Under the pieces are notes generated by a model. That model ran no database searches, was not told where the DNA came from, and saw only the letters and a program-made list of their open reading frames with translations. A stretch of 64,000 nt of DNA from Lagopus muta (taxonomy: Eukaryota > Chordata > Aves > Galliformes > Phasianidae): NCBI RefSeq assembly GCF_023343835.1, contig NC_064437.1, positions 17,789,501-17,853,500 of the forward strand. The letters run 5' to 3'. Below, in pieces: positions 19,701 through 22,700 of this stretch. The position numbers and the translations under genes are program-made. The stretch's first letter is position 1; every line of letters starts with the position of its first letter.

Positions 19701-22700
19701 ACGGAAGTTGTGATTCTAAAATGCAGCTTTTTAAACACTTACATCATTTGTACACTTATTACTATTTTTTGAATAGTAACTTTTGAAGGCTTACTAGATC
19801 TTTTCCATCCTGTTCTTGCATTTGCACCATTTATTTAAAAACAAAGTTGTAATTGGCTTAAAATCTTCAGGATATTTTCTAGAATTATTTAGTTAATTTG
19901 TAAATTTCCACAGAATAAAAACAACTTTATGAATGCTACCTGTTATGACTATTTTCATGAATCGCATGTATGAAGAACGCACTTATATTTGGTTAACATT
20001 CACACTGATGATTGCCTGTACGTAGCTGACAATGGATGACTTCCATTAAAAATGTATTATGATCTATAGGAGATGCTAGCTACAGCCAGATCAGTCAGAC
20101 CTAATCTTTATGTGATAGCTGAACTCTTCACGGGCAGTGAGTACATTGACAATATTTTTGTCAACCGCCTGGGAATTACCAGCCTGATTAGAGGTACAAT
20201 AAGCAGTTGAAAGTTGTAGAGGGTTGTTATGTATGGTTTGGAGTTTTTAATGTGAAACTAACATTGATATGCTTTTTTTTCTCTTACATATTTATGTTCT
20301 TTGCTTATGCAATTATCTTCTCTTCTTCATGTTGTACTTAATTCCTCCTCTGTTGAACCTTAAACCTTAATTTTTGCTTATGTTTGTGTCATCCTCAACT
20401 GTTATTTAAATTACTTAATTTTGGCTTTCTATTTATCCTTGCTGCATGGCATTTTCCTATTTCAATCCCTGCCTAGCTTTGAAATTTGTCCTCTTTTATG
20501 TCTACCTTTCCCCTTTCTGTGGCTTTTTTGGCTGTGCTTTTTGCAGTACATGCTGGACACAGCTAGAAAGTTGCGAGCTGATTTGTTTGTAGTGGCTGAA
20601 CTGTTCACAGGAAATGAGGAGCTGGACAATATCTTTGTGAATAGTCTGGGCATTACCTCCTTAATAAGAGGTAGGCTTGCTGTGCATGTGCAATGCAAGA
20701 AATTGGTGTGAACTTTCCAGCTGGAGATTATAGAGAATGGGATTGGGATTTTCTTCAATTAAAAGATTCTTTCTGGATTACATGCTTCTAATTTCATATT
20801 CAATGTAATGTATTTGATTCTCAGCAAAAACAAAACAAAACCTAGAACAAAAAAAAAACCCCAAAACATTACAGTATTAACTGGAGGTTAAATATTTCAC
20901 TTCTGTTACAGTGAGGGAGAAAAGAAACTGTAGCACAGCTCCGCTGTGCAAGTGCTGCATCAGATCTGACTTTTATTGCATGAGTTTCCTAAGTCCTCTG
21001 GGGAAACCAGAGAGGGGAAAAAAAGATCTTTTGTCCCTTTCCTACTTTTATGCACTATAGTAAACAGAGTACTTCAAGTTTGTGTATCCATATTGGAGAA
21101 AAAAGTTTTAATGTGATATTTGAACGCACCAAAATAAAAAATGTAAAATTCTGCATTTAACATCTGTGCCCGCTGTGCTGTATGGTAGCAACTCTTGTGC
21201 AAACACTTATCTATTTTGTTCTGTAGAGGCCATGACAGCTTATAATAGCCATGAAGAGGGAAGGCTGGTTTATCGTTTTGGAGGTGAGCCTGTTGGCTCT
21301 TTTGTTCAGCCACGTTTGCGGCCTTTGGTGCCAGGAATAGCGCATGCGCTCTTCATGGATATTACACATGACAATGAGTGTCCAATTCAGGTAAGCATGT
21401 AAATTGGAAACCAGAGTTTGTTTATTCTTTTCTAAATTGATGTTTTTGAATGATGGGAGGGCTTGTTGCAGTCTGCATGCTTTTTCTTTTCCCTTCTCAG
21501 CAATATTTAGAAAACTGATTCACTGGAGGTGAAAACGTGAAAACGTGAAAAACAAAAGTCCTACTGACTATTCAGTGAGCTGTTTTGGTTCTTTCATTCC
21601 AGCTGCTAATTGGTTTTGTATGATAGTTCATCTGTTCTCCTACACTCCTGTTTTCCAGGAGAGGATGAGAGAGAGAATGGTGTGAACTGAAATGCTTATA
21701 TTTGAGAATTGCTCTTACGTTGCTTTTGCTAGTGCTTTTGTAGTACGTCATCAATAAATCTGTTATTGAGAAAATTATAAGCACGTGGTAAGTAATTAGT
21801 TCCTCTACTAAACTGAGTTTATCTTCTATTTGCTGAATCAGGAGGGATCAATTATATATCTTACTTGTTTTGTATGTGATTTTATTTTATTTTTTTAATC
21901 CTAGCACCGATCTGCGTTTGATGCACTTCCAAGTGCAATGATTGTTTCCATGGCGTGTTGTGCTACAGGAAGCACCAAAGGTTATGATGAACTAGTACCA
22001 CACCAGGTCTGTGTTTACAGCTTAGCTTCTAAATTACTTTTAAAAACATATATTTGATTCTAAGTATTTTAATACTGAGTTTTTTCTGGTATCGGTTTGT
22101 GAGCTTTTGGTTTTTGTTTTTCATGGATCCGTTTGTTCGTTTTTAGCATGTTTTTATTTTGGTTTTAAATTCCAAGCAGTTAACTAGTTAGCATTCCTTG
22201 GGTTGTCTAATTTCATATGAAATCTGAATTGATTACATAATTGGAATCGCCATTTGTTTGTTTTTAAGTGTAGTTGATATTTGCAAAAAGTTAATTTCCC
22301 TACAGATTTCCGTAGTATCTGAAGAGAGATTTTATTCAAACTGGAATCCACAAGCACACCTGAATTCTGGTGAAGTTAATTTCCAGACAGGAATTCTAGC
22401 TGGAAGGCTAGCCATAAACAGACTGCATCAGGAGCTGGGAACTAAAGGCTTCAATCAGGCAAGACACGGGGTAACAATTTGATTTTCTATATTTATATTT
22501 TGAATGAGCCTGTTTGTAATGATATGTCTTTTCTAGGTGTATGTAGATCAAGTTGATGAAGACATAGTGGCAGTGACGCGACATTGCCCTAACACCCACC
22601 AGTCTGTTGTGGCTGTAAGCAGAACTGCTTTCAGGGATCCAAAGACTTCCTTCTACAGTAAAGAAGTACCTGAAATGTGTATCCCAGGTAATCAGATTTC

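Follow-up and report, generated by a model that had tools for sequence, protein, structure and literature searches.

The glycogen debranching enzyme gene (AGL) of Lagopus muta most probably harbors an ancient tandem duplication of the exon that encodes its transferase active-site segment, with the two copies spliced in a mutually exclusive fashion to give two full-length enzymes that differ at 12 residues around the 4-alpha-glucanotransferase active site. Judged from the DNA, the exon pair is real, old, maintained by selection and very probably functional, and we infer that both forms are expressed through alternative use of the exons in mRNA. The pair is best read as a new case of mutually exclusive tandem exons, in a central metabolic enzyme in which such an arrangement was unexpected. 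An earlier note on this DNA knew of no description of alternative transferase exons in AGL, which agrees with the open-licence literature insofar as no account appeared among the matches listed. Both AGL isoforms may already figure in the automatic annotation of bird genomes. A goose liver study places AGL among 131 differentially spliced genes, the splice event being unspecified in the accessible text. PMC11653684 was discarded as a source on AGL as the sole match in it was an author name.

The exon model was derived by comparing the three + strand frames of 9.0-39.0 kb of the window, the entire 64,000-nucleotide stretch that was analyzed, with solved chains of glycogen debranching enzyme (GDE), followed by joining at splice sites. 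The + strand encodes 29 AGL exons that correspond to human residues 222-1532 and span ~13.5-38.2 kb, with residues 1-221 (human numbering) lying outside the model. Homology with GDE is colinear exon by exon across the transferase and glucosidase regions, and identity to the human protein outside exon 13 amounts to 1025 of 1253 scored positions, two of which precede the first acceptor. The reading is open with either 13A or 13B, bar a lone stop at its second residue that is situated ahead of the acceptor of the first exon, which starts at ~13520. The intron at 14059-14504 was placed by eye, the automatic step having given no join there. Introns are GT-AG with the single exception of a GC donor at 22459 (CAG/GCAAGA), the sole such donor in the model, which opens an intron of merely 78 nt. 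The donor at 14882 (CAG/GTTTTA) is very weak, with the lowest score of the 29, and is followed by a 91-nt intron. Elsewhere in the window, tandem 8-mer tails of the ATTCTATG type, which are typical of CR1 retroposon ends and point to a bird or reptile, are present at 25414, 43529 and 47224. Downstream of AGL, long stop-to-stop frames cluster on both strands at 40160-41200, possibly marking a second promoter region, and a Pfam search of the three + frames of 39-64 kb produced no family.

Features of the duplicated exon region of AGL. Positions are those of the window; exon numbers follow the earlier note.
Feature	Position	Strand	Remarks
Exon 12	18888..19075	+	Nucleophile-aligned residue (human D526) and shared 5' splice site; 58/62 residues identical to human
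Exon 13A	20070..20193	+	41 codons + 1 nt; AELFTG with catalytic Glu; splice sites weak at either end
Intervening intron	20194..20546	+	353 nt; pyrimidine-rich (72% over 20270-20546)
AG-free zone	20244..20474	+	231 nt; longest on either window strand; begins 50 nt past 13A donor
ACTAAC, best branch-point-like motif (candidate)	20257..20262	+	Adenine at +68 from 13A 5' splice site
TGCATG upstream of 13B	20443..20448	+	Motif match
Lone AG (CCTAG)	20475..20476	+	Breaks AG-free zone; 70 intron bases from there to 13B
Adenine-free tract	20505..20544	+	40 nt; precedes 13B acceptor
Exon 13B	20547..20670	+	41 codons + 1 nt; AELFTG with catalytic Glu; ordinary splice sites
TGCATG shortly past 13B	20683..20688	+	Motif match
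Exon 14	21227..21390	+	Downstream exon common to both paths; 48/54 residues identical to human

The description of the pair in the earlier note was exact on recheck: 13A and 13B are homologous 124-nt exons set 353 nt apart, run from phase 0 to 1, align without gaps, and share 29 of 41 residues, with 14 codons identical, 15 differing synonymously and 12 changing the residue. At the DNA level 85 of 124 bases are identical and 39 differ. The exons are adjacent, homologous and equal in length and phase, the configuration of a tandem duplicate, and are embedded in unrelated flanks (ungapped matches at 30/120 positions upstream and 38/120 downstream). A third copy of exon 13 was not detected above chance in the window when tblastn was performed with 13A, 13B and the human segment, the best other match having an E value of 0.87. 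In a DNA search of the genome (1.03 Gb, 165 contigs) in which the best candidates were scored, 13A and 13B each matched only themselves. A protein search of the genome used a 547-residue query that matches human 222-770 and includes 13A. With the 12 best candidates scored, this search yielded 13 matches that all correspond to the present locus, both exon-13 copies included, and disclosed neither another AGL copy nor a processed copy that would reveal the spliced exon. Pfam searches with each 41-residue exon-13 peptide gave no family at E 1.

The reading frame accommodates one exon of the pair at a time. The paths 12-13A-14 and 12-13B-14 each are open, whereas exon 12 joined to exon 14 adds two residues before a stop, and when 12-13A-13B are joined directly, translation past the junction gives VHAGHS followed by a stop. 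A double product with 24 additional residues between the copies would stay open were the AG at 20475 to act as acceptor after 13A, while that acceptor spliced to exon 12 leads to a stop. Thus, frame alone cannot bar every double product. The splice sites of the two exons are unequal: among the 29 of each kind, the 13A acceptor has the fewest pyrimidines (8/17) and the 13A donor is the second weakest, whereas the 13B donor is 19th from weakest, as scored with a matrix of assumed values. As the donor at 14882 scores below that of 13A and presumably is used, a weak site is no proof of regulation.

The AG-free run of 231 nt lies in the intron between the copies. The next longest AG-free run on the + strand of the window is 129 nt and the longest on the - strand is 180 nt. 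Order-1 simulations of the window (200 in all) gave runs of up to 208 nt, compared to the 231 nt observed, and the longest run in 14 other 10-kb stretches, taken on both strands (280 kb) with two N runs set aside, was 177 nt. Shuffling produced a run of 231 nt in 37 of 20000 cases for the whole intron and in 220 of 20000 for its 3' part; the run is partly due to composition. The adenine nearest to the 13B acceptor is at -43, the farthest among the 29 acceptors, and none is present from -3 to -42, so that no branch point at the usual distance is available before 13B. Other possible branch motifs are TTTTATG at -49 and TTTGAAA at -65. Two of the 24 TGCATG hexamers on the + strand of the window, which presumably represent RBFOX-type motifs, fall within 19900-20900, a weak hint of RBFOX control of the pair. 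The intron folds no better than its shuffles (z 0.37), inverted repeats of at least 12 nt are absent from 19950-20800 where a 14-nt direct repeat is the only one of its kind, and Rfam gave no match at gathering scores.

The earlier note had argued for an old duplication in which both copies are under selection at the protein level, and had suggested a dN/dS analysis. Pairwise comparison of 13A with 13B by the Nei-Gojobori method gave dS of 1.63 and dN of 0.24, a ratio of 0.15 (codon bootstrap 0.05-0.38, samples with infinite dS being set to dS 3), an estimate that derives from an alignment of 41 codons only and in which dS is near saturation. The near-saturated dS dates the duplication no more closely than as old. 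In simulations with a mutation model that uses assumed values, one copy was allowed to drift while the other changed silently, which led to a mean of 20 residue differences at 39 base differences. No more than 12 residue changes arose in 1 of 3000 runs, that run being stop-free, and a stop was present in 1529 of the 3000. When both copies were neutral, the observed pattern appeared in 0 of 3000 runs. A neutral copy thus almost never matches the pair, in support of the note's argument, and the low dN/dS ratio together with the simulations indicates that both copies appear to be held as protein.

Comparison with the human segment (PDB 8zeq) upheld the further assertions that each copy differs from it at 12 of 41 residues and that neither copy is clearly the derived one: five differences are confined to 13A, five to 13B, and seven are common to both. 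This distribution suggests that the duplication occurred near or after the split between mammals and sauropsids. Human GDE (PDB 8zeq) and Candida glabrata GDE (PMC4837477, consulted in part) represent the orthologous gene and active-site segment, but those chains each carry one version of the segment whereas AGL here encodes two. Relative to Candida, the segment differs at 11 of 41 residues in human, 14 in 13A and 17 in 13B. Either copy is less similar to human (29/41) than is the remainder of the protein, although taken alone the difference falls short of significance (P 0.057). In aligned blocks with 571 positions outside exon 13, the residues on which human and Candida agree are changed at 11 of 269 positions outside exon 13, compared to 4 of 30 for 13A (P 0.051) and 6 of 30 for 13B (P 0.0035); pooling of the copies gives P 0.0014, for which the copies are not independent as they share ancestry. 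Both copies have therefore diverged at positions that yeast and human have in common, clearly for 13B and at borderline significance for 13A, such that neither isoform would be simply the mammalian enzyme.

The catalytic residues are spared by these changes. In Candida GDE, Asp535 serves as the nucleophile and Glu564 as the proton donor, and Phe566 and Gly568 contribute to a cleft in possible contact with the main chain of the substrate, according to the available portion of PMC4837477. Residues Glu564, Phe566 and Gly568 align with human 555, 557 and 559 and are unchanged in both 13A and 13B, whereas the nucleophile (human D526) is encoded by exon 12 outside of the duplicated exon. Thus, the acid/base Glu in AELFTG is preserved in both copies as had been proposed, but the number that it was assigned, E554, requires amendment to E555 in the 8zeq chain. 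The other residue positions given in the earlier note likewise are off by one: residue 524 in 8zeq is Arg, matching the disease variant R524H. The location within the barrel of the 12 residues that differ between the copies is assumed here from the general fold. As neither copy has lost the catalytic Glu or the Phe and Gly of the cleft, exon choice probably tunes, and does not abolish, transferase function.

In the arrangement that we favor, mutually exclusive splicing of 13A and 13B, exon 13B with its stronger sites would be used by default, and 13A would be the copy under regulation. The pyrimidine-rich intron, with its AG-free run and no adenine in the usual range before 13B, may hinder joining of 13A to 13B, and the same intron could act as a platform for regulators of the PTB, TIA or RBFOX type, a suggestion based on sequence motifs. 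Nonsense-mediated decay might dispose of leak products. Differences between the two enzymes would concern transferase kinetics, stability or partner binding and not catalytic chemistry, and the choice of isoform would probably be set by tissue or metabolic state. It is an evenly poised proposition that the lineage to which this species belongs, comprising probably birds and perhaps other sauropsids, possesses two debranching enzymes whose transferase sites are built differently and which are selected by tissue or metabolic state through mutually exclusive exons. The debranching enzyme usually is regarded as a single protein that bears two active sites. If true, the choice between two segments would constitute a natural experiment on how residues near the transferase site set branch transfer, and would bear on why a lineage retains both versions. 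It also would be relevant to work on glycogen and fatty liver in birds in which AGL is measured as one gene, to the interpretation of AGL variants within the duplicated segment, and to the small set of enzymes with a duplicated catalytic exon.

Other explanations of the pair were weighed against this evidence. Two similar segments 353 nt apart might reflect an assembly artefact or two collapsed haplotypes, an interpretation that is scarcely credible as 39 of 124 bases distinguish the copies, the flanks are unrelated (30/120 and 38/120 matches) and each exon retrieves only itself from the genome at the DNA level. It is improbable that one copy, most likely 13A, is a disused relic alongside an ordinary constitutive exon. 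The acceptor tract of 13A, the weakest of 29, and its donor, the second weakest by the assumed matrix values, favor disuse, but 13A retains AELFTG and 26 of the 30 residues common to human and Candida, and a neutral copy was expected to accumulate ~20 residue differences, stayed at 12 or fewer in only 1/3000 runs and acquired a stop in 1529/3000. Loss of use would need to be very recent. A role for 13A as a poison exon, whose inclusion with 13B triggers nonsense-mediated decay and thereby tunes the level of AGL, is consistent with the stop that follows VHAGHS in the 12-13A-13B product. However, such a role does not need constraint at the protein level, yet residues have been held while silent sites are near saturated, and skipping of both exons also leads to a stop so that the logic of the frame suits exclusion equally well. 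A role of this kind is very improbable.

Within mutually exclusive splicing of 13A and 13B, a compatible variant is strict exclusion as in the 2-oxoglutarate dehydrogenase gene OGDH, in which a distant branch point is too near to the donor of the upstream exon. As a same-genome control, exons of OGDH-type genes were located by means of the 2-oxoglutarate dehydrogenase E1 family, and the 4 kb examined upstream of the first exon match on C30 contained two homologous OGDH-like exons (locus L017, reverse strand; exons at ~36-126 and from 256). The second exon carries DADLD, the motif of OGDH exon 4b (PMC7969005), and the intron between them is 129 nt of which about 122-124 nt are AG-free up to the acceptor. 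Like AGL, OGDH 4a/4b is an ancient tandem pair in a metabolic enzyme with a short, pyrimidine-rich, AG-free intervening intron, although exon 4b has a calcium-binding motif unlike the AGL pair (PMC7969005, in the part available). In that source the human OGDH branch points are situated at a distance of 25-41 nt from the donor and the AG-free zone is long, with 50 nt quoted as a steric threshold. The AGL intron shares the long AG-free, pyrimidine-rich zone, which begins 50 nt past the donor with ACTAAC near its start, and the adenine-free interval from -3 to -42 before 13B. In contrast, the best AGL motif, a candidate by position only, lies at +68 and exceeds the ~50-nt threshold, the zone is interrupted before the 3' splice site by the AG at 20475-20476, which would be the first AG after a branch point at +68, and TTTTATG and TTTGAAA offer possible alternative branch sites. 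Strict steric exclusion in AGL is thus rather unlikely, and AGL resembles OGDH 4a/4b but is not filed as a steric case of the OGDH type.

Other tandem-exon systems share further features with AGL. In KHK the duplicated exon contains a catalytic residue that is kept in both forms, as in AGL, although KHK is a different enzyme; it is one of the 236 human tandem-exon events covered by PMC9741552, a source in which AGL is unnamed in the main text as far as this was available. The adjacent homologous exons of U2AF1 (Ab/3), TPM1, TPM2 and FYN have unequal recognition signals, and one exon of each pair is positioned behind a long pyrimidine tract, both as in AGL (PMC5224494, available in part). These genes do not specify metabolic enzymes, and the branch points of U2AF1 were mapped experimentally, whereas that of the AGL intron is a candidate motif.
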